Shown: one piece after another, positions 8,126 through 25,580 of the stretch | Layout of the letters: the number at the start of each line of letters is the position of its first letter | How positions within the stretch are numbered: position 1 is the stretch's first letter | Assembly (NCBI RefSeq): GCF_000445475.1 | Contig: NZ_AUPZ01000007.1 | Span: forward strand, 62,001-126,000 | Direction of reading: 5' to 3' | From: Sulfurimonas hongkongensis | GTDB lineage: Bacteria > Campylobacterota > Campylobacteria > Campylobacterales > Sulfurimonadaceae | DNA length: 64,000 nucleotides | The notes under the pieces: model-generated | Told to the model about the DNA's origin: nothing | What the model saw: only the letters and a program-made list of their open reading frames with translations | The model's database searches: none | Translations under genes and position numbers: made by a program

Positions 8126-8865
8126 TGAGCAGAGTCTATCTAACTGGCGCTGGTCCTGGCGATATAGAACTTTTAACTATAAAAGCACTTAGAGTTATCA
8201 AAGAAGCCGATGTTATAATCTATGATAGGCTGGCAAATCCAGACATATTAGAAGAAGCAAAGAGTGGCTGTGAATTTGTGTATGTTGGTAAAGAAGATGG
8301 CAGACATATAATGCCTCAAGATGATATAAACGAGGTAATCTACCAAAACGCTCTAAAGCACAAATGTGTAGTTCGCCTAAAAGGTGGTGATCCATTTGTA
8401 TTTGGACGTGGTGGAGAAGAGGCTCTTTATTTGCTTGAAAAAGGTATAAAATTTGATGTCATTCCTGGCATTACTTCTGCTATATCGGCACCTGCATATG
8501 CTGGTATTCCAGTTACTCATCGAGGTGTATCAGTTAGTTTTAGAGTGGTAACTGGACATGAATCTCCAAACAAAAAAGTCTCTCAAATACCGTGGGAAAA
8601 CTTTAAATCTGATGATACTATTGTCTTTTTAATGGGGCTACATAATCTTCCTAGGATATCTAAAAAACTCATTGAGCTTGGAAAGGCCCCAAATTATCCT
8701 GTGGCGGTCATCTCAAAAGGAACAACAAAAGACCAAGTGGTTGTTGTAGGAACACTAGAAAATATAGTCAAGAAGTCTAAAGATGTGCCGACTCCAGCAC
8801 TTATCGTAGTTGGAAGAGTTGTAGAACTTAGAGATCAACTTAAATGGTTTGAGGGTAATGACTAA
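8125..8865 (+). CDS. nirE: Uroporphyrinogen-III C-methyltransferase (NirE/CobA/SUMT)
   Basis: 246-residue SAM-dependent methyltransferase that makes precorrin-2, the first committed step to siroheme and heme d1. Family motifs are GAGPGD near residue 8, VIIYDRLANPDIL, KGGDPFVFGRGGEE and the VIPGITSAISAPAYAGIP segment. There is no fused oxidase/chelatase (CysG-type) domain. Location between nirF and the two-component genes identifies it as NirE. The start ATG overlaps the nirF stop by one base and the end overlaps the kinase gene. Confidence 0.93.
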   Translation: MSRVYLTGAGPGDIELLTIKALRVIKEADVIIYDRLANPDILEEAKSGCEFVYVGKEDGRHIMPQDDINEVIYQNALKHKCVVRLKGGDPFVFGRGGEEALYLLEKGIKFDVIPGITSAISAPAYAGIPVTHRGVSVSFRVVTGHESPNKKVSQIPWENFKSDDTIVFLMGLHNLPRISKKLIELGKAPNYPVAVISKGTTKDQVVVVGTLENIVKKSKDVPTPALIVVGRVVELRDQLKWFEGND

Positions 8866-10363
8866 GCATAACTATAAAGATGCTATAGAGATAGCCAAAA
8901 ATATCTACTGGGTTGGAATGTATCTACAGGATGACCCATTTCAATGCCATCCATATTTCATAGAAAATGGCAACGAGTCTATTTTAGTAGATCCGGGATC
9001 CATGCTAGAGTTTGAAGAGACTGTTAGAAAAGTAAAAAGCATAGCTGATATAAGTAGCATAAAATACATAATACTGCATCATCAAGACCCAGACTTAGCA
9101 GCTGCAGTTCCTGAGATAGAAAAGCTTATAGATAGAGATGATTTACTTATAGTTACACACTCAAGAACAGCTCTTTTGATAAAACACTATCTTGTAAGCT
9201 CAGATTATTATGAGATAGATAAAAATGAAAACAGACTCATCACTTTAAGTGGGTTTACTCTTGAATTTTATACTACACCATATTGCCACGCACCAGGAGC
9301 ATTTGTGAGTTATGAGCCAGAGACTAAGACGCTTTTTTCAGGCGACATCTTTGGAGGCATTGAGAAATCATGGGAGTTTTATGCAGATGAGACATACTTT
9401 GCCAAAGCAAAACAGTTCCATCAAGAGTATATGCCGAGTAAAGATATATTTAACTTTGCACTACAAAAGATTGAAAAACTAGATCTCGAACTTATTGCTC
9501 CACAACATGGATCTATTATAAAAAAACAATATATAAAAAAGCTAATTGAAGATATGAAAAATCTAGAGTGTGGGATATATATAGATGCTAATTACAACCA
9601 AGAGCTACTAGATACTATTAACGAACTAAAAGAGAAAAAAGAGACTATAAAAGAGAGAGATAGACAGCTCTTTGAGCAGTCAAAAAGAGCTGAGATGGGT
9701 GAAATGATAGGTAATATTGCTCATCAATGGAGACAACCACTAGCCATAATAAGCACAATTTTAGCCATCTTAAAAGAAAAAAACAGTGCTAAAGTGCTCA
9801 AAAATGGTGAAATAGAACAAAAAATAGAGACTATGGAAGAAAAGGTAGAGTATATGTCTGATACTATAGAGGACTTTATGAACTACTACAAACCAAATAA
9901 AGACAGGAGCATTTTTAATATAAACGAAGCCCTGCAAAGAGCTTTAAAAATTACAAACTATACTCCACTAAATCATCAAATAAAAGTTAAAACAACAATA
10001 GATGAGGAGCTAGGCACAAAAGGGCATATAAATGAGTTTGTGCAGGTGATAGTCTCCATACTCTCAAATATCTATGATATTAAAAACATAAGGTCACTCC
10101 CTTTTGTAAATGTAGATATAAAGATGCAAAGAGAGGGTTTGGATGCCGTAGTCACTATTAGCGATGATGCAGGGGGGATAGAAGCAGATATTTTACCCAA
10201 AATATTCAATCCATACTTTACAACAAAGCATCAATCCTTAGGGACTGGTCTTGGTCTGCATATAGCAAAGACTATTATAGAGAACAATATGAATGGCTCC
10301 TTGAGTGTTAAAAACAATCAAAAAGGTGCAACTTTTATCATAAGGATGAAAAATGAAAACTGA
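8858..10363 (+). CDS. Soluble sensor histidine kinase with N-terminal flavodiiron-like (ODP/FDP) metallo-beta-lactamase domain
   Basis: 501 residues from ATG 8858 (a TTG nine bases earlier is possible but lacks a ribosome site). Residues 1-245 form a flavodiiron-type metallo-beta-lactamase domain: H75-x-D77-x-D79, H144, D163 and H217. The H144-to-D163 gap of 18 residues equals that of flavodiiron NO/O2 reductases, but the usual Glu is Asp and the following His is Leu80. A coiled linker (252-280) leads to a kinase core with phospho-acceptor H289 in NIAHQWRQPL, a DDAGGI G1 box and GTGLGLHIAK G2 box. There is no flavodoxin domain and no membrane segment. It overlaps nirE by 8 bases and its regulator by 11. 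A role as cytosolic O2 or NO sensor is inferred. Confidence 0.85.
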   Translation: MTKHNYKDAIEIAKNIYWVGMYLQDDPFQCHPYFIENGNESILVDPGSMLEFEETVRKVKSIADISSIKYIILHHQDPDLAAAVPEIEKLIDRDDLLIVTHSRTALLIKHYLVSSDYYEIDKNENRLITLSGFTLEFYTTPYCHAPGAFVSYEPETKTLFSGDIFGGIEKSWEFYADETYFAKAKQFHQEYMPSKDIFNFALQKIEKLDLELIAPQHGSIIKKQYIKKLIEDMKNLECGIYIDANYNQELLDTINELKEKKETIKERDRQLFEQSKRAEMGEMIGNIAHQWRQPLAIISTILAILKEKNSAKVLKNGEIEQKIETMEEKVEYMSDTIEDFMNYYKPNKDRSIFNINEALQRALKITNYTPLNHQIKVKTTIDEELGTKGHINEFVQVIVSILSNIYDIKNIRSLPFVNVDIKMQREGLDAVVTISDDAGGIEADILPKIFNPYFTTKHQSLGTGLGLHIAKTIIENNMNGSLSVKNNQKGATFIIRMKNEN

Positions 10364-14864: not shown

Positions 14865-15000
14865 CAAATATATGTTACTTTGTGTAGCAAGTATAAATCA
14901 TTTGTTACTCTAATAAAATAGGGGTTATTTTTAACTATATATTGAGATATAATTTTTGTTAATAGCTGACTAAAGCACTTACTTGATTAAGGAGCAATTT

Positions 15001-15543
15001 ATGGTTAGAAAAACACTCTCTAAAGAGGACTCTCCAAAAGATATTACAAATATTGAAAAACAACTGGGCGATAATGATTTTATAGTCTCAAAGACAGATA
15101 CCAAAGGGAATATCATCTATTGTAATGAGATATTTAGCAATATTGCTGGATATAAAACATCTAACCTTATAGGAGCAAATCATAATCTTATAAGACATCC
15201 TGATATGCCTCGTATCGCATTTAAGACTCTATGGGATCTTGTCAAAGATAAAAAAGAGTTTTTTGGATTTGTAAAAAATCTTTGTGCTGATGGAGGTTAC
15301 TACTGGGTGTTTGCCTATATCACGGCTGACTTGGATATAAATAAAAATATTGTAAGTTATACTTCAGTTAGAAGAAAACCTCTAAAGTCAGCCATTGAGA
15401 CTATTGTTCCCATATATAAACTACTTATAGATGCAGAAAAAAGTGGCGGGATGAATGAGTCCGCAAGGGTTTTAGGGGACTTTTTACATAAAAACAGAAC
15501 AAGTTATGAAGAGTTTGTAGTAAATCTTCAAAAAGGAGAGTAG
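15001..15543 (+). CDS. PAS-domain energy-taxis sensor (CetB/Aer-like)
   Basis: 180 residues from ATG 15001, which has AAGGAG at 14989-14994; a TTG 18 bases upstream lies before that site and is rejected. A single PAS domain spans about 22-125 with the Aer/CetB signature: [15 protein letters not shown] and [16 protein letters not shown]. Such domains often bind FAD and report redox state. It lies one base ahead of a receptor lacking its own sensory domain, as CetB works with CetA in Campylobacter jejuni. Gene order here is PAS first. Confidence 0.88.
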
Positions 15544-15544
15544 C

Positions 15545-17008
15545 GTGAACTCTATGAAAAATTATAGAGTTGTTGCTCTTTTGGTTTTAGTGCTTATAAG
15601 TGCTGGTATTTTAGCAGTAAATTCTCAAATTATCTTTGCTCTGGTTGTAGTAACTTTAGCGATTGCTTCTTTATTTATCCCTCAAAAGCAAGAGATGGGC
15701 GGTAGTGAAGATGCACTTATGGATAAAATAGCTACAACTTTAGAAGATGTAAAAGATGGAAAACTCTCAACTCGTGTTATTTTATATAGGCACGACAGTA
15801 AACTCGAAAATATTGCATGGAATATTAACAAGTGCTTAGACCAAGTAGAAGTTGTACTTAGAGAGAGCAGAAATACCATAGATGCTGTTAGCCAGGGCTT
15901 TATATATAGAAGTATGTATCCAGCTGGCTTGCAAGGCGAGTTTGGAGAGACCGCACAACGAATACAAAAGGCAGTTGAATCTATGAAAGCAAACGAGGGC
16001 TACAAGGTGATGGGGCAGTTAAGTAGTACATTTAGCAACTTCAACGCTGGGATGAAAGGCAACTTTGACCTTATAACTACAGATATAAACAAAACAGAGA
16101 ACTCATTTATGGATGTTACTGCTAGCACATCTAAGGCCTCAGCATCTGCTAAAGAGACTTACAGCTCCCTGCAAACTACTACTAAGGAGATAGAGAGTCT
16201 TAGTCAATTAGTTACAAATACTTCTGATGCTATAAGAGAGATGGATACAAATGTTGGTGATATTGCTATGATAGTTAGTCTCATAAAAGATATAGCAGAT
16301 CAAACAAACTTGCTTGCACTTAATACTGCCATAGAAGCTGCACGAGCAGGTGAACATGGACGAGGTTTTGCAGTTGTGGCTGATGAAGTTAGAAAACTAG
16401 CTGAGAGAACTCAAAAAGCAACTGGCGAGATTAGCATTACTATAGATAATCTTCAAGACCAATCAAAAAACATCTCGCACAACTCTGATGCAATGAATGA
16501 TATAGCCACTCAAACTAGTCAAACAATGAGAGAGTTTTTAGATACTATGAACAACTTTACAATAAATCTTACCCACACATCAAAGCTCTCAAATACAAGT
16601 AGTTTTGCCCTGTTTTTATCAAACTATAAAATCCAACATATACTCTTTAAGTCAAATGCCTACTCTGCCGTAGTTAGTTCAAGTGTAACAAAAGAGTTAA
16701 AAAAAGACCATAAACATTGTGGTTTTGGGCTTTGGTACTATGGAGTTGGAAGTGAACTTTTTGGACAAAACGCTTCGTTTAAGGCAATGGAGCCTCATCA
16801 TATTGCTTTTCATGAACTTATAAATGAAAATCTTGAGCCTGCTTTGGCTGGTCACTCTCTAACGGATAAAGAGACAAAAGAGGCACTACTAAGAAGATTT
16901 AATGAGGCAGAGAGTCACTCAAATGAGCTTTTTAAGCTCATGGACAAGTTCTCACAAGAGGTTGGTGAGACTGTAGAAATGCATGAGGTTTTAGAAAATA
17001 AAGCTTGA
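15545..17008 (+). CDS. Methyl-accepting chemotaxis protein with C-terminal CZB domain (CetA-like)
   Basis: 487 residues starting at GTG 15545 behind AAGGAG. Two adjacent N-terminal helices (about 6-45) with almost no periplasmic loop, a HAMP-like stretch, then the signalling hairpin with the invariant [19 protein letters not shown] region. A C-terminal chemoreceptor zinc-binding (CZB) domain follows: His in [17 protein letters not shown], and HHIAFHE. Lack of a periplasmic sensor and coupling to the PAS gene indicate a bipartite taxis receptor; the CZB domain adds possible zinc or oxidant sensing. Confidence 0.92.
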
Positions 17009-17079
17009 TATTTTTAAGTTTTGATTGTATTTTTTTAGTTAAACTTTAGACAAATTTAAATTCGGACTTAAAGTACAAT

Positions 17080-17901
17080 ATGAAAAAGCTTATTTTATTT
17101 TTTTTGCTATCTTTAAGTAACCTGCTTTTAGCACAAGGCGTCAAAGTAAATTTTGCGCCACTTCCTACAAAAAAAGCTACAAAAAATATAGAAGAGTTTT
17201 TACCTATGAGTTCATACTTAGAATCAAAAATCTCTATAAAAATCAACTATATATATAAAAAAGACTATCAAGATATACTAGATGGCTTTAAAGATAACTC
17301 TATAGATATGGCATACCTTGGACCTCTTCTTTATCTCTCTTTAAAAAAAGAGTATGAGTTTATAGAACCTATAATCTCGTTTAAACAAGAAGATGGACTT
17401 AGTAAGTACAGGTGCGTTCTCGCAAAGTTTAAAGAAGATGAGTTTGATAAAAAACAGCAGATAAAAATAGCACTTACACAGCCTCTCTCAACTTGTGGTT
17501 ACTTTATGAGTAATATCTTGTTAAGGGAAAATTTCAACATAGACCTTGCTAAGCAAAAGTATGGTTACACAATGTCACATACAAATGCTCTTATTAGCGT
17601 TGTAAAAGGCGAGTTTTTAATAGCTGGGGCTAAAGAGGGCATAGCTAAACAGTTTGAGTCATTAGGTGTTGAGATTATTGCAAAAAGTAAACTTTTACCG
17701 GGATTTTCCATTGTAGTAAATACTAAAACTCTTACAAAAGAGCAGATACAGAGCATAAAAGGCGCTCTGTTAGAGTTAGAAAAAAAAGACAAAAATGAAC
17801 TCAAGGGTATACTCTCAAACGGCGTTGTAGAAGCAAATGAGTGTGATTATGATGAGCTGTTTATTGATTTTAATATCCCATATAAAGCAAATACAAAATG
17901 A
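17080..17901 (+). CDS. PhnD-like periplasmic substrate-binding protein
   Basis: 273 residues with signal peptide (about 1-19) and the PhnD/phosphate-phosphonate binding fold: FAPLPTK, DMAYLGPLLYL near residue 75, and FSIVVNTKTL. In transporters these proteins deliver phosphonate or phosphite-type ligands, but no permease or ATPase is nearby. The last four bases (ATGA) overlap the start of a diguanylate cyclase with a periplasmic domain, so the protein may serve as its ligand receptor. Confidence 0.85.
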   Translation: MKKLILFFLLSLSNLLLAQGVKVNFAPLPTKKATKNIEEFLPMSSYLESKISIKINYIYKKDYQDILDGFKDNSIDMAYLGPLLYLSLKKEYEFIEPIISFKQEDGLSKYRCVLAKFKEDEFDKKQQIKIALTQPLSTCGYFMSNILLRENFNIDLAKQKYGYTMSHTNALISVVKGEFLIAGAKEGIAKQFESLGVEIIAKSKLLPGFSIVVNTKTLTKEQIQSIKGALLELEKKDKNELKGILSNGVVEANECDYDELFIDFNIPYKANTK

Positions 17902-19886
17902 AGATCAAAATCTTTATAGCATTTGTGCTTACTTCTTTTATATGTATCATGCTTGTGAAGTATATACAAACTTCACAAGAGAGCGTAATACAAAGTGCTA
18001 CAGATAAAAATCTTGAATTCATTAGAGTTGCAAATAAGTCTATTTTAGAGACGTATATGCTTGTAGCTCAAAAAAGTTTTTATGATACTATGAGAAACAG
18101 AGAGGCTATGGAGATTTTAAAAAGATTTAAGAGAGTTGATGAGTCTCAAAAGTCTTTACTTAGAGGAAAACTCTTTAGACTTCTATATAAAGAGTATGAA
18201 TTTTTAACCAAACTAAATGTTAGACAGATTCACTTTCATACTCATGACTCTAAAAGCCTGCTTAGATTTCATATACCGTACCAAAATGGGGACTCTTTAA
18301 AAGAGGCACGAAGCTCGGTACGGATCGCAAATAGTGAGCTTAGAGAGGTTATGGGCTTTGAAAGTGGTAAGATTTATCCTGCTTACAGATATGTTTTTCC
18401 CATACTTTATGAGGGAGAACACTTAGGAAGTGTTGAGTTTTCTATCTCTTTTGAAGGCATAGAGAAAAAACTAAGGGCTATATTTCCAGCTTATACGCAC
18501 AAGATAATCTTAGATAAAAAAACAAGCTATGACAAGATTTTTAAAGAGTATAGAGATTTTTTTACACCATCACAACTAAGCAGTAACTACTACTTAGAAA
18601 ATCCTACAATCTCGAAATTAAACAAAAAAATATCAAGAGACTCTTTTGTGCAAAAGCTCACAAATTTGGTTAAAAGTAATAAATATTTTTTAGAAAAATT
18701 AAACAAAAAAGAGAGCTTTTCTCTACCTATCATAAATGACAATAAAGGTTGTGTGGCAGTATTTTTAAATCTAAAGAATATAGACAATGAAAGCGCCGCT
18801 TATATAGTCTCATATGCTCCTCTTGATGAAATAACGATTATCAAAAAAAGATATGATTTTTTTAAGATGATAGTTGTTGTAGTCTCTTTACTTCTTTTTG
18901 CTCTTGTTGTAGCCATTATCATACAGATGCAAAAAATAAAAGATGAAACTTTAAAGATACAAAGATTTATGAATGTTCAAAGTTCTATTGTGATACTAAC
19001 AGATGGAGTAAGGTTTAGCTTCGCTAACAAGAAGTTTTTTGACTTTTTTAACTACAAAGACATAGAAGCGTTTTTAGAACATCATGAGTGTATTTGTGAC
19101 CTTTTTATAAGAGATAAAAACTTCTTTAGCTTGAGTGATGTAAAAAAGAATGAGAAGCACTGGGTTGAGAGTCTCTTAAATCTTCCAGGGAGGGCTAGAG
19201 TAGTCTTAATGTTTGACTCAACTATGACTCCTCACGCTTTTTCAATCTCTATAAATCAATATGATGCAAACTACTATATAATTGATTTTGCAGATATTAG
19301 TGATGCTATGAGTGAAAAACTTCAGCTTCAAAAACAGGTCTTAAAAGATACACTAACAAATGCATACAACAGAGCCTATTTTGATAAAAATATAGACTCC
19401 ATACTCCAACTAAATAAAAAACACAACAGCTTCACTGCTATCATATTTTTTGATATAGATTTTTTCAAAAAAGTAAATGATACTTATGGACATGTAGTGG
19501 GAGATGAGGTTTTAAAAACTCTCTCAGATATTGTAAAAGCCGACATAAGAAAAGATGATAAACTTATTCGTTGGGGTGGAGAAGAGTTTATTATAGTCTT
19601 AGCTGCTAAATCCATAGAAGAAGCAACTAAACTAGCTGAGCATCTAAGAGAAAGCATTCAAGAGTATAAGTTTGACACTATAGGTTTGCTAACTTGCAGC
19701 TTTGGAGTCTCTTTGTGTGAAGATGGAGATATACAAAAAACTATAAAAGAGGCTGATGAGAGGCTCTATAAAGCAAAAGAGACTGGCAGAAACAGAGTAG
19801 TTTCTACTTCGGAAGTGGAATCTTTAGGAGCACTAACTAGTCGCACTTTCCATGAAGAGTCCCACAAAACAGGGCGAGGCTTCTAG
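17898..19886 (+). CDS. Membrane diguanylate cyclase with periplasmic sensor domain
   Basis: 662 residues. Helix at about 5-22, a large periplasmic domain of double-CACHE size (about 25-310), a second helix (about 322-345), a PAS-like region (about 355-470), then GGDEF domain. The active motif is WGGEEF and an RKDD inhibition site stands five residues before it, so it should make c-di-GMP with product inhibition. Coupled by ATGA to the PhnD-like gene. The last residues (HEESHKTGRGF) are encoded by an inverted repeat that spans the stop codon. Confidence 0.9.
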   Translation: MKIKIFIAFVLTSFICIMLVKYIQTSQESVIQSATDKNLEFIRVANKSILETYMLVAQKSFYDTMRNREAMEILKRFKRVDESQKSLLRGKLFRLLYKEYEFLTKLNVRQIHFHTHDSKSLLRFHIPYQNGDSLKEARSSVRIANSELREVMGFESGKIYPAYRYVFPILYEGEHLGSVEFSISFEGIEKKLRAIFPAYTHKIILDKKTSYDKIFKEYRDFFTPSQLSSNYYLENPTISKLNKKISRDSFVQKLTNLVKSNKYFLEKLNKKESFSLPIINDNKGCVAVFLNLKNIDNESAAYIVSYAPLDEITIIKKRYDFFKMIVVVVSLLLFALVVAIIIQMQKIKDETLKIQRFMNVQSSIVILTDGVRFSFANKKFFDFFNYKDIEAFLEHHECICDLFIRDKNFFSLSDVKKNEKHWVESLLNLPGRARVVLMFDSTMTPHAFSISINQYDANYYIIDFADISDAMSEKLQLQKQVLKDTLTNAYNRAYFDKNIDSILQLNKKHNSFTAIIFFDIDFFKKVNDTYGHVVGDEVLKTLSDIVKADIRKDDKLIRWGGEEFIIVLAAKSIEEATKLAEHLRESIQEYKFDTIGLLTCSFGVSLCEDGDIQKTIKEADERLYKAKETGRNRVVSTSEVESLGALTSRTFHEESHKTGRGF

Positions 19887-19892
19887 GAAAGT
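19845..19892. repeat. Inverted repeat across the stop codon of the diguanylate cyclase gene
   Basis: Arms ACTTTCC-AT-GAAG and CTTC-TA-GGAAAGT enclose a 22-base loop that includes GGGCGAGGC. The same CAGGGCGAGGCT word occurs in reverse complement at 59007-59022 near another hairpin. It may act as a terminator toward the converging Cys-rich gene and may be part of a dispersed repeat. Confidence 0.45.
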
Positions 19893-19907
19893 TATGGGTT
19901 AGCGTTT

Positions 19908-20273
19908 CTATTTAGCTGGGCATTTACCAGAGTCGCAGTTCTTGCCTTTAGCTTTTTTACTATCGCATTTTTTACTGTCGCATTTCATGCCTTTACTGGA
20001 CTTTTGTCCGCATTTGCAATCTTTGCATTTGCAATCTCCACAAGGACAGTTTTCGTTGCCACAGCTTGACATTTTTTTGTCACACTTGCACTCATCACCA
20101 CACTTACAAGTTTTGCTAGTTTTACACTTGGCATCATCACAGCTCATTTTGTTCATCTTAGAACTGCCACACTTACCTGAACCACACTTCATCTCTGCAC
20201 TTAGAGTAGTAGAACCTAGTGCTAAAAACAAAACTGCCCCAAAAAGTAGAGCCATTAGGTTTAGTTTTTTCAT
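19908..20273 (-). CDS. Cysteine-rich low-complexity exported protein (HvfA-like)
   Basis: 121 residues: signal peptide (about 1-26, ending LSAEM) and a mature part of about 95 residues with 19 cysteines, mostly in CGSGKCG, CKCGDECKC, CGNENCPCGDCKCKDCKC and CDSKKCDSKK patterns, rich in Lys, Gly, Ser and Asp. The CGSGKCG word resembles the EGKCG repeats of HvfA-type precursors that MNIO (DUF692) enzymes convert into copper-binding peptides. No MNIO gene lies in the window, so this may be an orphan precursor or a metallothionein-like protein. ATG 20273 has an AAGGAAAC site. Confidence 0.75.
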   Translation of the reverse strand: MKKLNLMALLFGAVLFLALGSTTLSAEMKCGSGKCGSSKMNKMSCDDAKCKTSKTCKCGDECKCDKKMSSCGNENCPCGDCKCKDCKCGQKSSKGMKCDSKKCDSKKAKGKNCDSGKCPAK

Positions 20274-20370
20274 CTTTTGTTTCCTTAAATTTAAATGAAG
20301 ATTATTGTAGCATAAAAAATATTTATAAAACGATATCTGTTTTATCTTCTAAAATAGCTCGAGTTAAAGC

Positions 20371-20397
20371 TTGGCACGTAGATTGATGTAGTGCCAA
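20371..20397. promoter_or_regulatory. Inverted repeat TTGGCAC-N13-GTGCCAA upstream of the hydrolase
   Basis: Perfect 7-bp arms separated by 13 bases, 133 bases before the hydrolase ATG in a 256-base spacer that otherwise shows only AT-rich sequence. It could be a repressor site or a small RNA hairpin. No regulator assigned. Confidence 0.3.
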
Positions 20398-20529
20398 AAT
20401 AGTTTTTTAAATACACAAAGAGGTGTTAAAAAATAACTATAAGCCTTTTTGATGTACAATCTTAAAAACAAAACTTTAAAGGCTTTATATTTTCAAAAGC
20501 TTTAAATCTTTTTTATAAAGGCAAAAAAA

Positions 20530-21066
20530 ATGAAGAAAAAAGTTTTACTACTTCACGGATGGGGAGGAAGTGACACACCTCATTGGCAAAGTTATATAGC
20601 AGCTGAGATTGCTAGAGATTATGGTTGTGTTAGTTTTTTAAAACTGCCAGATTTTGAGTCACCAGATAAAGATATTTGGATAAAAGAGACTCTAAGAGAA
20701 CTAAGGGAGTTTAGAGCTAACGTTGTAGTTTGTCACTCTCTTGCAAATACTTTATGGTTTCATATGTGCAATAGTGGACTTCTTGAAGATGTTGAAAATC
20801 TATTTTTAGTCGCTCCTCCAAGCCTAAACTCAAAAATAGATGAACTAAAAAACTTTTTTCCTGTAGAAGTTCCTAAAGACTTACATGCAAAAAAAGCACT
20901 CTTAGTCTGCTCCGATGATGATCCATATATGAGCATGAAAGAAGCAAGAGAGCTTCAAAGTAAACTAGGCATAGAGATAAAAGTCTTAGAAAAAGCAGGG
21001 CATATCAACGCTGATAGTGGATTTGGTGAGTGGGAATGGATGCTAAAGAAGATAAAATCATTGTAA
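20530..21066 (+). CDS. RBBP9/YdeN-family serine hydrolase
   Basis: 178-residue alpha/beta hydrolase. N-terminal LLLHGWGGSDTPHWQ is the family signature, Ser in VVCHSLANTL is the nucleophile, Asp in CSDDDPY and His in KAGHINADSGFG complete the triad. Cytosolic, physiological substrate unknown. A 22-base gap separates it from a small helical protein, so the two are probably co-transcribed. Confidence 0.9.
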   Translation: MKKKVLLLHGWGGSDTPHWQSYIAAEIARDYGCVSFLKLPDFESPDKDIWIKETLRELREFRANVVVCHSLANTLWFHMCNSGLLEDVENLFLVAPPSLNSKIDELKNFFPVEVPKDLHAKKALLVCSDDDPYMSMKEARELQSKLGIEIKVLEKAGHINADSGFGEWEWMLKKIKSL

Positions 21067-21088
21067 AAAAACAGATAAGGATAGTTAT

Positions 21089-21289
21089 ATGAAAGATACA
21101 GTAGAAGAGTTAGAATCAGAACTGCAAATAGTATATTTAAATATAGACAACATTGCAGCAAGAGTTGCAAACAAAGAGCTTGATGCTTATGAGGGATTTT
21201 TAGAATCACAGAAGTACAAAGATAGGATTGTAGAGATTGGTTATGCTTTAAAAGAAAAAGGTATAGATATTACTACAAGGGTTGAGTAA
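21089..21289 (+). CDS. Small helical protein of unknown function
   Basis: 66 residues, acidic, predicted helical throughout (VEELESELQIVYLNIDNIAARV), no Cys, no membrane segment and no motif recognised. AAGGATAG upstream of ATG 21089 serves as ribosome site. Probably translated from the same mRNA as the hydrolase. Confidence 0.65.
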   Translation: MKDTVEELESELQIVYLNIDNIAARVANKELDAYEGFLESQKYKDRIVEIGYALKEKGIDITTRVE

Positions 21290-21318
21290 GTTTATCATAG
21301 CTTAAAGAAAAATTAGTA

Positions 21319-21332
21319 TTGGCATACATCAA
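21319..21332. promoter_or_regulatory. FNR/NNR-like operator before ygbA, TTGGCATACATCAA
   Basis: TTGGC-N4-ATCAA; the right half is exact and the left half has one or two mismatches to TTGAT. Its centre lies 71 bases before the ygbA ATG, which would put a -41.5 start near 21367 with a 30-base leader. It agrees with the NO-linked family of the gene behind it. Confidence 0.5.
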
Positions 21333-21396
21333 GTGCTTTGTTTTTTATTTTAGGTACACTTCATGCAAATCGAACAAATAAAATAAAGCATAAGAG

Positions 21397-21762
21397 ATGA
21401 CTGAAGAAAAATTTATCCATGACAGCCAGACTGTCTTAAAGTTTATCCAGTGTTATTGTGATCATGAACATGTAAAGGCTGAAAAAAAAATAGACTCCAT
21501 TGCTCTAAGTTACAAAGATAGAGAGTTAAATGAAGCTATACACTATACTCTTTGTGATAGATGCGAAGAGACTCTTTACTATTCATATATAAAACTACAA
21601 GCGTGTCCGCACGATGAAAAACCAAGCTGTAGGAAGTGCCCAAAACCTTGTTATGATAAAAAAGAGTGGAAGCACCTAGCAAAAATTATGCGTTTTAGTG
21701 GATTGAAGTTTGGAGTCCTTAGAATCAAAAAACTCTTTAGTGGATTTCAAAAGAGCGCATAA
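21397..21762 (+). CDS. ygbA: YgbA-family nitrous oxide-stimulated promoter protein
   Basis: 121 residues matching the YgbA_NO family: an N-terminal helix with YCDHEH, then LCDRCEETLYYSYIKLQACPH, KPSCRKCPKPCYDKKEW and a C-terminal MRFSGLKFG. Six conserved cysteines suggest metal or cluster binding. In Escherichia coli ygbA is induced by NO and helps recovery from nitrosative stress. An FNR/NNR-like box upstream supports the same regulation here. Confidence 0.85.
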   Translation: MTEEKFIHDSQTVLKFIQCYCDHEHVKAEKKIDSIALSYKDRELNEAIHYTLCDRCEETLYYSYIKLQACPHDEKPSCRKCPKPCYDKKEWKHLAKIMRFSGLKFGVLRIKKLFSGFQKSA

Positions 21763-21779
21763 GAGAGGTTTTCCTCTTG

Positions 21780-21801
21780 CTCCCACGCAGAGCGTGGGAA
21801 C
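21780..21801. repeat. REP-like palindrome, best copy in the window
   Basis: Perfect stem TCCCACGC / GCGTGGGA with AGA loop, followed by ACTAG. Copies also at 11090-11165 and 62663-62684, always between genes. Palindromes of this family are scattered in many bacterial genomes. This one may also end the ygbA transcript. Confidence 0.7.
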
Positions 21802-21904
21802 TAGTTATGCTTTTAGGGATGCTAAACAATGGCGTCGTCCATGATAAGCTTCACACTGAGGGTCATTAAAATAAGAGTATAATTGCAAAAAAAGAAAGAT
21901 ATTT

Positions 21905-24001
21905 ATGCAAAACCTCATTGACCTACTAAGCCAAAAAACCTCGTTTAAAAAAGAACATATTAAAAACATACTAAAACTACTTGATGATGGAAGCACCATC
22001 CCTTTTATAGCCCGGTACCGCAAAGAGTTAAGTGGTGGGGCGAGCGATGAAGCTCTGCGTGAGTTTGAGTTAGTCTATATTGGTGCTAAAAACTTACTAG
22101 AGCGTAAAGCTGAAGTTTTAAGACTCATCGAGGAGCGTGCAACTCTTAGTGAGGCTATAAGAAAGAGTATAGAAGAGGCAGAGAGTCTAAGAGTTTTAGA
22201 AGATATTTATAGACCATTTAAAGAGTCTAAAAACACTCGTGCTACTGTAGCTGTCAAAAACGGTTTAGCTCCACTTGCAAACACTCTACAAAGTGCAAGA
22301 CTAAGTCTATCTGAGTTTAAGCTTGAGGCAAAAAAGTTTGTAAAGCAAGATGTTAAAAGTGTAGATGAAGCGATAGCTGGAGCTAAAGATATTTTGGCTC
22401 AAAGATATGCCCAGTCACCAAAACAAAGAAGTGTTCTGCGTGAGAACATGCTAAAGTTTGCAACTCTTGAGACTAAAAAAACAAAGAGTTTTAAAGAGGA
22501 TGGAGTTTTTAAAAACTTAGCCCATAAAAGTGAAAAAATAGCCTATATCCCATCATATAGATACCTTGCCATCATGCGAGCGGTGAGAGAAAAAGAGTTA
22601 AGTGTAAAAATTGTAACTGATGTAGAGAGACTAGAGCAAAATATAAGACGTTTTAAGATTCCATCACACGCTTCAAGTTCGAGTGAAATTTTATTTGAAG
22701 CTTATCAAGATGGATTAAAGAGACTTCTGCTTCCATCAATAGAGAGAGAAGTTCATAGCATTGTAAAAGAAAAAGCTGATGCTTCATCCATAGGTGTTTT
22801 TGGAAAAAATCTTGTTCAACTACTTATGACTCCACCAATCACGCCAAGAGTGGTTTTAGGCGTGGATCCTGCTTATGTGAGCGGATGCAAGCTTGCAGTT
22901 ATTGATGAGAGTTCTAACTTTTTGGACTGGGCAGTTATATATCCAACACAACCGAGAAATGACTATGAGGGCTCTAAAAAAGTAGTTTTGGCATTAATAA
23001 AAAAATATGATATCACAAGTGTGGCTATAGGAAATGGCACAGGTTCTAGGGAGACTCAAGAGTTTTTTGCAAAACTAATAGAAGAAGAAAAACTCTCTCT
23101 TGGCTATACAGTAGTCTCAGAAGCGGGCGCCTCTGTTTACTCAGCTTCAAGCATAGCCCAAAAGGAGTATCCAAAACTTGATGTTACTATAAGAGGTGCC
23201 ATCTCCATAGCCCATAGGCTTCGAGATCCTATGGCAGCACTTGTAAAGATAGATGCAAAGTCTTTGGGCATTGGAGAGTATCAACACGATGTTGACCAAA
23301 AACTTCTTGCAAAAAGGCTCGATGATGTCACAGGCGACTTAGTAAACCGAGTAGGAGTTGATGTAAACTCAGCATCAGCATCTCTGCTCTCGCATATTGC
23401 AGGCATCGGAGCTAAAGTGGCTCAAAATATCATAGAGTATCGCCAAAAAAATGGTGTATTTAAGACAAAGAGTGAACTTTTAAAAGTAAAAGGTTTGGGC
23501 AAAAAAGCTTACGAGCAAGCTGCTGGATTTATCCGAATCAAAAATGGCAAAAATATCTTTGATAACTCTGGTATCCATCCTGAGAGTTATGAGGTGGCTA
23601 AAAAGTTAGACTTAGATGAGTTAAAAAGCTTAGATATTCGCACAAAAGCGCACGAGCTAGGTATAGGTTTTGAGACACTTAATGACATCATTAAAGAGCT
23701 AATAAAGCCAGGCTTTGATCCAAGAGAAGAGTTGCCTGGCATCGTTTTTAAAAAGGGTTTGACTAATATTGAGATGCTAAAAGAGGGAAGTCTCGTCTCT
23801 GGCATAGTTCGAAACATCACAGATTTTGGAGCATTTGTTGATATTGGGCTAAAAAATGATGGGATGATTCATATATCAAAGATGAGCGAGAAGCGGATAA
23901 AACATCCGTTTGAAGTACTCTCTATCAATCAGCATCTACCAAACATAAGAGTAGTCTTGGTAGATTTTAAAACACAAAAAGTAGAACTTAGTCTAATCTA
24001 G
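21905..24001 (+). CDS. tex: Tex-family RNA-binding transcription accessory protein
   Basis: 698 residues, slightly shorter than the usual 720-780. Order of domains: Tex N-terminal helical region with TIPFIARYRKE, YqgF-like RNase H fold around 310-450 (VLGVDPAYVSGCKLAVID), helix-hairpin-helix pair around 485-560 (HIAGIGAKVAQNI, VKGLGKKAYEQAAG), and a C-terminal S1 domain (GIVRNITDFGAFVDIG). Tex binds RNA and influences transcription; exact role here is not known. Monocistronic by spacing. Confidence 0.95.
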   Translation: MQNLIDLLSQKTSFKKEHIKNILKLLDDGSTIPFIARYRKELSGGASDEALREFELVYIGAKNLLERKAEVLRLIEERATLSEAIRKSIEEAESLRVLEDIYRPFKESKNTRATVAVKNGLAPLANTLQSARLSLSEFKLEAKKFVKQDVKSVDEAIAGAKDILAQRYAQSPKQRSVLRENMLKFATLETKKTKSFKEDGVFKNLAHKSEKIAYIPSYRYLAIMRAVREKELSVKIVTDVERLEQNIRRFKIPSHASSSSEILFEAYQDGLKRLLLPSIEREVHSIVKEKADASSIGVFGKNLVQLLMTPPITPRVVLGVDPAYVSGCKLAVIDESSNFLDWAVIYPTQPRNDYEGSKKVVLALIKKYDITSVAIGNGTGSRETQEFFAKLIEEEKLSLGYTVVSEAGASVYSASSIAQKEYPKLDVTIRGAISIAHRLRDPMAALVKIDAKSLGIGEYQHDVDQKLLAKRLDDVTGDLVNRVGVDVNSASASLLSHIAGIGAKVAQNIIEYRQKNGVFKTKSELLKVKGLGKKAYEQAAGFIRIKNGKNIFDNSGIHPESYEVAKKLDLDELKSLDIRTKAHELGIGFETLNDIIKELIKPGFDPREELPGIVFKKGLTNIEMLKEGSLVSGIVRNITDFGAFVDIGLKNDGMIHISKMSEKRIKHPFEVLSINQHLPNIRVVLVDFKTQKVELSLI

Positions 24002-24041
24002 TAAAAAGTTGACAAATCTACTGTTTTTGCTTTTATTTTTG

Positions 24042-24050
24042 TGTTAGAAT
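24042..24050 (+). promoter_or_regulatory. Possible extended -10 promoter for sorAB
   Basis: TGTTAGAAT is a TGn-type extended -10 element ending 26 bases before the sorA ATG. A TTGACA at 24009-24014 is too far upstream for standard -35 spacing; Campylobacterota sigma-70 promoters usually lack a conserved -35. Confidence 0.35.
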
Positions 24051-24076
24051 AAAAAAAAGTTATAAAAGGATTTTAA

Positions 24077-25270
24077 ATGCAAAGAAGAGACTTTTTCCGC
24101 CTCTCACTTAGTGCTTGTGCAGTTGTTTTTGGCTCAAATGCATTTGGTATAACTCGTGAACCTCTTGATAATCAAAAAGTCATAGATATCGCATTTCCAC
24201 AGAAGCGACCACTCATTACTTACTCGGACAGACCTCCTCTTTTAGAGACTCCTATGGAGTTTTTAGGAAGTGCCATCACTCCAAATGATGCTTTTTTTGT
24301 AAGATGGCATATGCCTCGTATCCCCGTTTACAAATATATAGACCAGTACAGACTCTCTGTTGGTGGAGCTGTCAAAAATCATATCTATCTCTCACTTGAT
24401 GAGCTTAAGAGTGAGTTTAAAATAGTTGAAATCACAGCAGTTGTGCAGTGTGGTGGTAACTCTCGTTCAGCATTTGTGCCAACTACAAGTGGTATACAAT
24501 GGGGAAATGGTGCTATGGGTTGTGCAAAGTTTAAAGGTGTGAGATTAATAGATGTGCTTGATTATGCAGGGCTTGACAAAGATGCTAGATGGGTAGGTTT
24601 AAATGGTGATGATAAGGCAGCCTTTCACAAAACTGAGAACTTTAAAAGAGAGCTAGAGTTGAGTGAGATAAATGAAAATGTCATCATAGCTTATGAGATG
24701 AATGGAGAAGAGTTACCGTTTTTAAATGGTTACCCAATCCGCCTAATCGTTCCAGGCATGTACTCTGATAGTTGGGTTAAGATGCTAAGCACCATAAGTG
24801 TGACAAAAGAGTATCAAGAACTTTTTTATATGGACAAAGCTTACCGTATAGCTGATAATGAGTGTGAGTGTGAATCGCCAGATAATTTGGCTAAAAAAAC
24901 AAAGCCCATCACAACCATGAACATCAAGTCCGTTATAGCTTACCCTAAAAATGGCTCGAGCATAAAAGTAGATGCAAATGTTATAGCAAAAGGCGTAGCT
25001 TTTGATGGTGGTCATGGCATTAAAGAGGTTCTTATCTCAGTTGATGGGGGAGAGAGTTGGCAGAGTGCAGATCTAGGAGAGGAGCTCTCACCCTATGCAT
25101 TTCGAGAGTTTAGATTTTCTTTTAGAGCTAAGAGTAGGGGAGTTTTAACCATTATGGCAAAAGCTATAAATAACTTAGGACAAGAGCAACCAAAGCCTAG
25201 TGAGATAAAGTGGAATAGAGGCGGTTATAAATATAACGGCATCGATAGCATCACTTTGGAGGTAGTTTAA
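24077..25270 (+). CDS. sorA: Molybdopterin sulfite dehydrogenase catalytic subunit SorA (SoxC-like)
   Basis: 397 residues with a twin-arginine signal, RRDFFRLSLSACAVVFG, so exported folded. The sulfite oxidase-family molybdenum domain holds the Cys ligand in VVQCGGNSRS, and a C-terminal Mo-cofactor dimerisation domain starts near residue 285 (SVIAYPKNGSSI). It should oxidise sulfite to sulfate in the periplasm and pass electrons to the cytochrome encoded two bases downstream, as in SorAB (Cj0005/Cj0004 type). SoxC is the closest alternative, but no other sox genes are near. Confidence 0.9.
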   Translation: MQRRDFFRLSLSACAVVFGSNAFGITREPLDNQKVIDIAFPQKRPLITYSDRPPLLETPMEFLGSAITPNDAFFVRWHMPRIPVYKYIDQYRLSVGGAVKNHIYLSLDELKSEFKIVEITAVVQCGGNSRSAFVPTTSGIQWGNGAMGCAKFKGVRLIDVLDYAGLDKDARWVGLNGDDKAAFHKTENFKRELELSEINENVIIAYEMNGEELPFLNGYPIRLIVPGMYSDSWVKMLSTISVTKEYQELFYMDKAYRIADNECECESPDNLAKKTKPITTMNIKSVIAYPKNGSSIKVDANVIAKGVAFDGGHGIKEVLISVDGGESWQSADLGEELSPYAFREFRFSFRAKSRGVLTIMAKAINNLGQEQPKPSEIKWNRGGYKYNGIDSITLEVV

Positions 25271-25271
25271 G

Positions 25272-25580
25272 ATGAAAAAAACAATAATAATTTTGTTACT
25301 TTTAGCATCAACTCTGCTTGGAGAATATGAAAAAGATGTTAAAATCCCAAGCGTAACGTTTACTATGGCTCAAGATGAAGATTTTAAAGCCATTCAAAGA
25401 AATTGTCAGTGGTGTCACTCTCATGGCTACATCCTAAATCAGGGCAAACAATCAAGAGAATTTTGGAGAAAGTCAGTTATAAAGATGAGAGAAGTATATA
25501 AAGCTCCCATCACACAAAAAGATGAGAAAATCATCATAGATTACCTATTTAGACACTATGGAGACAACACAGAAGAGTAA
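25272..25580 (+). CDS. sorB: Sulfite dehydrogenase cytochrome c subunit SorB
   Basis: 102 residues with signal peptide (about 1-17) and one heme motif CQWCH near 40-44; Met in VIKMREVYK may be the distal ligand. Its position two bases after the molybdenum subunit identifies it as the electron acceptor. The TAA shares its last base with the ATG of the ABC-F gene, so ABC-F translation is coupled to this operon. Confidence 0.9.
   Translation: MKKTIIILLLLASTLLGEYEKDVKIPSVTFTMAQDEDFKAIQRNCQWCHSHGYILNQGKQSREFWRKSVIKMREVYKAPITQKDEKIIIDYLFRHYGDNTEE

Follow-up and report, generated by a model that had tools for sequence, protein, structure and literature searches.

The window analysed here is a stretch of 64,000 nucleotides of Sulfurimonas hongkongensis DNA (contig NZ_AUPZ01000007.1, positions 62,001 to 126,000), and all positions given without a locus label refer to it. 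On its minus strand, positions 19908..20273 hold a gene for a KCG-type, Cys-rich, exported-type peptide of 121 aa with 19 cysteines, assigned from the open reading frame and its relatives. Residues 1-26 (20196..20273, minus strand) form a likely Sec signal peptide: by inspection, the protein starts with MKK, a hydrophobic stretch and ...TLSA/E, and the relatives have a similar start. Peptide alignment placed an HvfA-like head, MKCGSGKCGSS, at residues 28-38 (20160..20192, minus strand), in which C30, G31, K34, C35 and G36 are invariant among 13 aligned peptides. A metallothionein-like core with five CxC pairs, recognized by composition and alignment, extends from C45 to G89 (20007..20141, minus strand). 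The mature part (residues 27-121, 95 aa) has 19 Cys, 25 Lys, five CxC pairs, four KCG words and no aromatic residue (F, W or Y), and the peptide is likely disordered. The first-pass annotation, made from the letters of the window, had described a signal peptide, 19 cysteines in about 95 mature residues and the words CGSGKCG and CKCGDECKC; the count is exact, both words are present and the signal peptide is Sec-like by inspection. An AAGGAA run resembling a ribosome-binding site lies ~7 bases upstream of the ATG. In a consensus scan near the gene, four promoter-like sites (1.8 expected) and two terminator-like sites (0.6 expected) were detected, nothing firm in either case.

The window protein matched no family in Pfam or NCBIfam up to E=10; neither the Pfam metallothionein model nor the NCBI models NF050137 (EGKCG-type repeat) and NF050188 (HvfA equivalog) gave a match to that limit. 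The best result of a search against solved structures was a chance match to a TNF receptor (E=0.33). Window-like peptides (E<=0.001) were found in 77 of 120 genomes of the window's genus, and the same search gave matches in 14 of 248 genomes of an order-wide sample; composition bias may help some of these matches. At the DNA level, the KCGxGKCG word occurs once in the 2.3-Mb genome, at this gene, and its reversed control does not occur. Since 77 of 120 genus genomes have a match and the word is unique against a control of zero, we concluded that the open reading frame is not a chance one.

Next to the peptide gene, separated by 21 bases, lies a plus-strand gene for a GGDEF protein with a dCache_3 sensor domain (17898..19886; Pfam), strong look-alikes of which flank an HvfA/HvfX locus in two genomes (G330 and G303). 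On the other side are a Ser_hydrolase gene (PF06821; 20530..21066, plus strand), whose product we take to be RBBP9-like and which has look-alikes around the HvfA locus in many species of the genus, and a gene for a small conserved protein with no Pfam match (21089..21289, plus strand), with look-alikes flanking the HvfA locus in G180 and G303. Other neighbours by Pfam are a YgbA_NO protein and Tex. Applied to the 10 proteins encoded around the gene from 14983 to 25580, Pfam recognized no copper-transport family, DUF2063 or MNIO, in agreement with the first-pass annotation that no MNIO or DUF2063 partner is adjacent. Two further features of the neighbourhood were recorded. At 24077-25580 an Oxidored_molyb/Mo-co_dimer protein (sulfite-oxidase-like) is followed by a small CxxCH-motif protein; in L217 and L218, genes judged by eye to be look-alikes of these likewise border the KCG locus. 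The chemoreceptor encoded at 15545-17008 carries a CZB (chemoreceptor zinc-binding) domain at its C-terminus, and a small PAS protein is encoded ahead of it.

Look-alikes of the genes next to the window peptide gene flank the peptide in 15 of the 28 own-genus loci compared (L018, L019, L020, L023, L024, L204, L205, L206, L211, L213, L216-L219 and L223; the own-genus locus L117 is outside the 28). In G303 (L213) the order is GGDEF, HvfX, KCG peptide and Ser_hydrolase, with other genes interspersed. In G330 (L211) the same GGDEF protein, split into two ORF pieces, is found beside a Glu_synthase-domain protein, HvfX and two tandem peptides, one of which carries CxCGxxCxC-type arrays closely like those of the window protein. 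Shorter CxC inserts are present in peptides of G309, G180, G102 and G158. Judged by sequence and gene order, the window protein is a metallothionein-like type of the HvfA-like family at the usual locus of the genus, with the GMC cassette described below located elsewhere in the genome.

The genome (2,302,023 bases in 28 contigs, completeness 100%) was searched for MNIO (HvfB, PF05114; DUF692), and no match was found. The first-pass annotation had likened the peptide to precursors whose cysteines are converted by MNIO enzymes, and had said that its proposal would fall if the genome had no MNIO and the peptide bound no metal; the former is what the search returned. A single paralog of the window peptide is encoded on another contig (C2). 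It is an exported-type protein of 93 aa with five KCG words and no CxC, and it scores above the cut-off of the HvfA domain model NF050137 (21.1 bits against 19.5) and below that of the equivalog NF050188 (15 against 95). It must lie near the edge of NF050137, because a six-frame search of the genome with that model was silent at E<=0.01. The paralog is followed by genes for a DoxX protein, a Gluconate_2-dh3 protein (PF13618; GDH3) and a GMC oxidoreductase. The DoxX protein is an HvfX equivalog (NF050144, 124.6 bits against 80) and also matches DoxD just above the cut-off (24.7 against 22.7 bits). The window peptide gene itself is not adjacent to GMC or HvfX. The term orphan in the first-pass annotation thus holds locally and not for the genome, where the paralog sits in a conserved gene set. 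HvfA-like is apt by descent, in that the window protein and the NF050137-passing paralog have the signal peptide and the M(K/R)CGxGKCGSS start in common; it is not apt in other respects, as the window protein fails the models, has a CxC core and comes from a genome with no MNIO match. Straight HvfA membership was ruled out by the lack of a model match and of MNIO. Judged by GMC, the closest relative is G281 (91% identity, completeness 96), and it has only one peptide match.

A KCG peptide, HvfX, GDH3 and GMC occur together in many relatives. We compared 51 GMC loci, comprising 50 genomes and L001 (of the 54 GMC genomes, G043, G095, G139 and G174 were left out). Two close KCG words are found within 4 kb of GMC in 30 of the 51 loci, and these span seven families (f1, f2, f6, f7, f9, f18 and f20). 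By eye, 29 of the 30 hold clear exported-type peptides; L128, which has no in-frame signal-like start and may be a remnant, is included in the counts. The remaining 21 loci have no KCG pair nearby, and L138 and some others of them end at contig ends. In 250.7 kb of more distant DNA from the loci, KCG hits were found only in L019 and L024, both of them same-neighbourhood peptides, and mapping the KCG label on the GMC tree required 7 changes against 16.5 after shuffling. HvfX lies within 6 kb of GMC in 19/30 KCG loci and 0/21 others. Copper markers detected by BLAST (CusA/CzcA RND, CopA-type ATPase, HMA and YtkA) lie within the same distance in 7/30 and 0/21, respectively, and MNIO in none of the 51. 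A later locus, L204 of genome G324, contains GMC-GDH3, MNIO-HvfC, a Glu_synthase-domain protein, HvfX and a KCG peptide within 13 kb; GMC and MNIO are 3.6 kb apart, and look-alikes of the Ser_hydrolase and of a DUF4395 protein follow within 3.2 kb. In L001, from a Campylobacterales MAG, HvfX is replaced by a DUF4395 protein that terminates in KCETGKCDTGKCG. On the Sulfurospirillum plasmid NZ_CP118374.1, a peptide of 73 aa containing three KCG words is encoded divergently from a small hypothetical protein and GMC; MsrP, a ferric-reductase-like protein and a two-component system are found beside it.

The copper setting is visible at individual loci. KCG peptides are found beside a CusA/CzcA-family RND pump and an HMA protein in L024, and beside CopA-like ATPases in L023 and L027; YtkA domains occur in L215 and, fused to a KCG head, in L027. 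A second, lipoprotein-like KCG family (L205:95-472, L019:651-1025, L222:2729-3088 and L167:5916-6269) has the start MKCGAGKCGA(N/S)M(F/V)(D/E)G followed by a KKK(K/M)NIL segment, often beside CusA-like or CopA-like genes. A cytochrome c-like protein, so assigned by eye (L168:5573-5965), carries KCGQGKCGSS near its C-terminus; together with the YtkA fusion of L027 and the DUF4395 protein of L001, it suggests that periplasmic or membrane proteins can carry the KC(G) word as a portable tag. Met-rich relatives starting with MKCGSGMM(P/Q)K... lie directly upstream of GDH3-GMC in family f18 (L140:5921-6337, L144:5928-6596 and L147:5617-6060). Beside the KCG peptide of L021 is an exported-type protein (8457-8927) with 19 Cys in many near-perfect tandem KKCDKSKKCDY-like units. 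At several KCG loci (L019:4870-6621, L204:9808-11562 and L153:2917-4602), HvfX is followed by a Glu_synthase-domain (PF01645) protein that seems to have a membrane segment at its N-terminus and may be a second flavoprotein of the system. Also recurrent beside KCG peptides is an exported-type protein of the metallo-beta-lactamase fold (Lactamase_B_2 in L019:8233-9102), with look-alikes by eye in L204-L208, L215, L220 and L223; according to the available text of an MNIO-system survey, a different class of MNIO gene clusters contains this domain as well (PMC12452194).

Among solved structures, the nearest relatives of the cassette GMC are FAD glucose dehydrogenase (6a2u, 1.4e-50) and fructose dehydrogenase. 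According to the available text of PMC6719666, the Burkholderia cepacia glucose dehydrogenase probably uses His476 and Asn519 as its catalytic pair, binds a 3Fe-4S cluster through Cys212, Cys218 and Cys222, and depends for its secretion on a small Tat "hitchhiker" subunit; the residue numbers agree with the 6a2u chain. The three cluster cysteines (C211, C217 and C222) are kept in 51/51 aligned GMCs. The catalytic pair is absent in 51/51, with His changed to Leu and Asn changed to Pro or Ala. In a control GDH3-GMC from Mesorhizobium, ~30% identical, both His and Asn are kept (by eye). The GMC thus shares its fold, its GDH3-type partner and the 3Fe-4S cysteines with the B. cepacia enzyme (alpha plus Tat hitchhiker gamma) and with fructose dehydrogenase, and differs from them in lacking the His/Asn pair and in its linkage to KCG peptides and HvfX. 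It fits best as a putative periplasmic flavo-iron-sulfur protein, not an ordinary sugar dehydrogenase; loss of the pair may also mean that it performs no chemistry at all. An invariant Cys in the AGGCRFG motif was considered as a special active-site thiol and dropped, as many GMC proteins carry Cys at this position. For the small subunit, a twin-arginine-like motif ([KR]R-x-hydrophobic) was found in 49/50 GDH3 proteins and a PF13618 match on that of L017; no cytochrome gene was recognized by eye beside the GDH3-GMC pair in L017. GDH3 gave chance-level matches to solved structures (E 0.64 and 0.91), and a viral-contig scan with GMC returned no relative.

We then counted peptide, GMC and MNIO across genomes, with overlaps in the order sample taken by hand from the match tables. 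Of its 248 genomes, 22 have MNIO, 54 have GMC and 42 have an HvfA domain (36 over the curated cut-off). Among those 42, GMC accompanies the HvfA domain in 27 genomes (Fisher p 2.9e-11, relatedness uncorrected) and MNIO does so in 11; one has both (G225) and five have neither. GMC and MNIO overlap in one genome of the sample (hypergeometric p 0.027 for an overlap so small, relatedness uncorrected). Genus g9 shows the same separation: MNIO in 7/18, GMC in 7/18, none shared and four with neither (p 0.010, relatedness uncorrected). In the 120 genomes of the window's genus, the window-like peptide was found in 77, GMC in 76 and MNIO in 5. Peptide and GMC coincide in 67 (Fisher p 4.8e-13, relatedness uncorrected), peptide and MNIO in 4, GMC and MNIO in 5, and 10 of the 77 peptide-bearing genomes have neither enzyme. 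Forty-three of 83 peptide matches in the genus lie within 8 kb of GMC (median 1.5 kb), and for another 30 the genome has GMC, though not within that range. Strict replacement of MNIO by GMC fits the order sample and g9 but fails as a rule: all five MNIO genomes of the window's genus also carry GMC, which therefore does not strictly stand in for MNIO.

The window protein can be placed between two known groups. With the HvfA/oxazolin (captophorin, Buf_EGKCG) precursors it shares Lys-Cys-Gly words and, by inspection, a likely Sec-type signal, and the likeness extends to HvfX (DoxX) at the locus of the paralog and to the copper context in relatives. The differences are the lack of MNIO in this genome, the failure of the window protein in the models, its CxC core and the presence of GDH3-GMC in the cassette. 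In the same order, loci with MNIO (e.g., G169, G240 and G312) also have a KCG peptide and HvfX; unlike the cassette, they have MNIO and HvfC (DUF2063) after the peptide. Like metallothioneins, the window protein is small, rich in Lys and Cys, has CxC pairs and lacks aromatic residues in its mature part; it differs from them in being exported-type, in having no Pfam match and in its HvfA-type KCGxGKCG start.

In our preferred reading, which we believe and doubt in about equal measure, the window peptide is a periplasmic Cu(I)-thiolate buffer and one arm of an MNIO-free HvfA/HvfX system with a GMC-GDH3 redox partner. A peptide of HvfA-like (KCG) descent with a metallothionein-like CxC core would be made from the usual HvfA locus of the genus and exported to the periplasm by Sec, where its cysteine thiolates would bind a soft metal, most likely Cu(I). 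The other parts of the system would come from the second contig, namely the second KCG peptide, HvfX and the GDH3-GMC pair. Tat would carry the GMC-GDH3 complex to the periplasm, where it would act as the redox partner of the KCG peptides through thiol or Cu(I)-thiolate chemistry, and HvfX, in some species together with the Glu_synthase-domain protein, would pass electrons to the membrane. A more specific proposal, which we put forward tentatively and rather doubt, is that this GMC-fold flavo-iron-sulfur protein with a rebuilt active site, Tat-exported with GDH3, matures HvfA-type peptides in the periplasm or serves there as their redox enzyme.

A simpler account, doubtful in our view though a serious contender, is that the peptide is an unmodified exported metallothionein-like buffer, and that GMC-GDH3 is a neighbour in a copper-stress or redox island, with its own small-molecule substrate, which never touches the peptide. 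Nineteen cysteines and a CxC core could bind metal with no modification, and the 21 GMC loci with no nearby KCG peptide are as this account would have it. It also agrees with the MNIO-system survey, whose available text reports Buf_EGKCG with no MNIO in 67/2583 genomes and presumes that such precursors need no modification or are non-functional (PMC12452194). It leaves aside the presence of GMC in 67 of 77 peptide-bearing genus genomes and the adjacency in seven families; HvfX near GMC is found only where KCG peptides are (19/30 vs 0/21), and the canonical sugar/alcohol catalytic pair is missing from GMC. The window gene could instead be a decaying leftover at an old locus, HvfX and the rest having moved to, or been replaced by, the cassette on the other contig. 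We consider this unlikely: although the fuller HvfA/HvfX loci of L211 and L213 are bordered by look-alikes of its neighbours, here only a 21-base gap separates GGDEF from the peptide, and G281 has only one peptide match, the open reading frame is intact with its 19 Cys, ribosome-site-like run and conserved signal and head. A similar CxC array is also present at the syntenic site in G330, and shorter ones in G309, G180, G102 and G158.

Two explanations concern the chemistry rather than the gene. The genes that recur beside KCG loci are of the copper-efflux type, and in known HvfA products copper is bound by MNIO-made 5-thiooxazoles (-4 Da per Cys), according to the available text of two papers (PMC13419390, PMC13097082). 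Both points argue against the idea, which we regard as improbable, that in this presumed sulfur oxidizer the peptides carry sulfane sulfur or polysulfide, not copper, and feed a periplasmic thiol:quinone system of HvfX (DoxX) and GMC. What favours a sulfur role is the marginal match of HvfX to DoxD, the TQO small subunit, and the DUF4395 protein with its C-terminal sequence in the HvfX position of L001. That an MNIO was missed, or that a different enzyme modifies the peptide in trans, is very improbable; the assembly, in 28 contigs, is not closed and five of the 120 genus genomes have MNIO, against which stand the completeness of 100% and the absence of MNIO from 73 of the 77 peptide-bearing genomes of the genus.

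Among the literature matches listed, no paper linked GMC or GDH3 with HvfA, bufferins or MNIO, and neither GMC nor Campylobacter occurs in the main text of PMC12452194. A paper on a fungal enzyme (PMC10967070) contains "bufferin..." and "GMC oxidoreductase", the former probably being "buffering". As far as the searched literature shows, the conserved GMC-GDH3-HvfX setting for MNIO-less HvfA-type peptides, as read from sequence comparison, appears to be new. The MNIO-less share found here is 31/42 in the order sample by the NCBI HvfA domain model and 73/77 in the window's genus by likeness to the window protein, criteria that differ from those of PMC12452194. Most of these MNIO-less genomes carry the conserved GMC-GDH3 pair. 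HvfA peptide maturation with no MNIO, and action on peptides by a flavoenzyme devoid of the sugar-oxidizing residues, can now be tested, and G324, with MNIO and GMC at one locus, is a natural test case. If the proposal is true, GMC would act after export, instead of or beside the cytoplasmic MNIO, and there would be an unrecognized MNIO-independent route to Cys-rich copper peptides across Campylobacterota.
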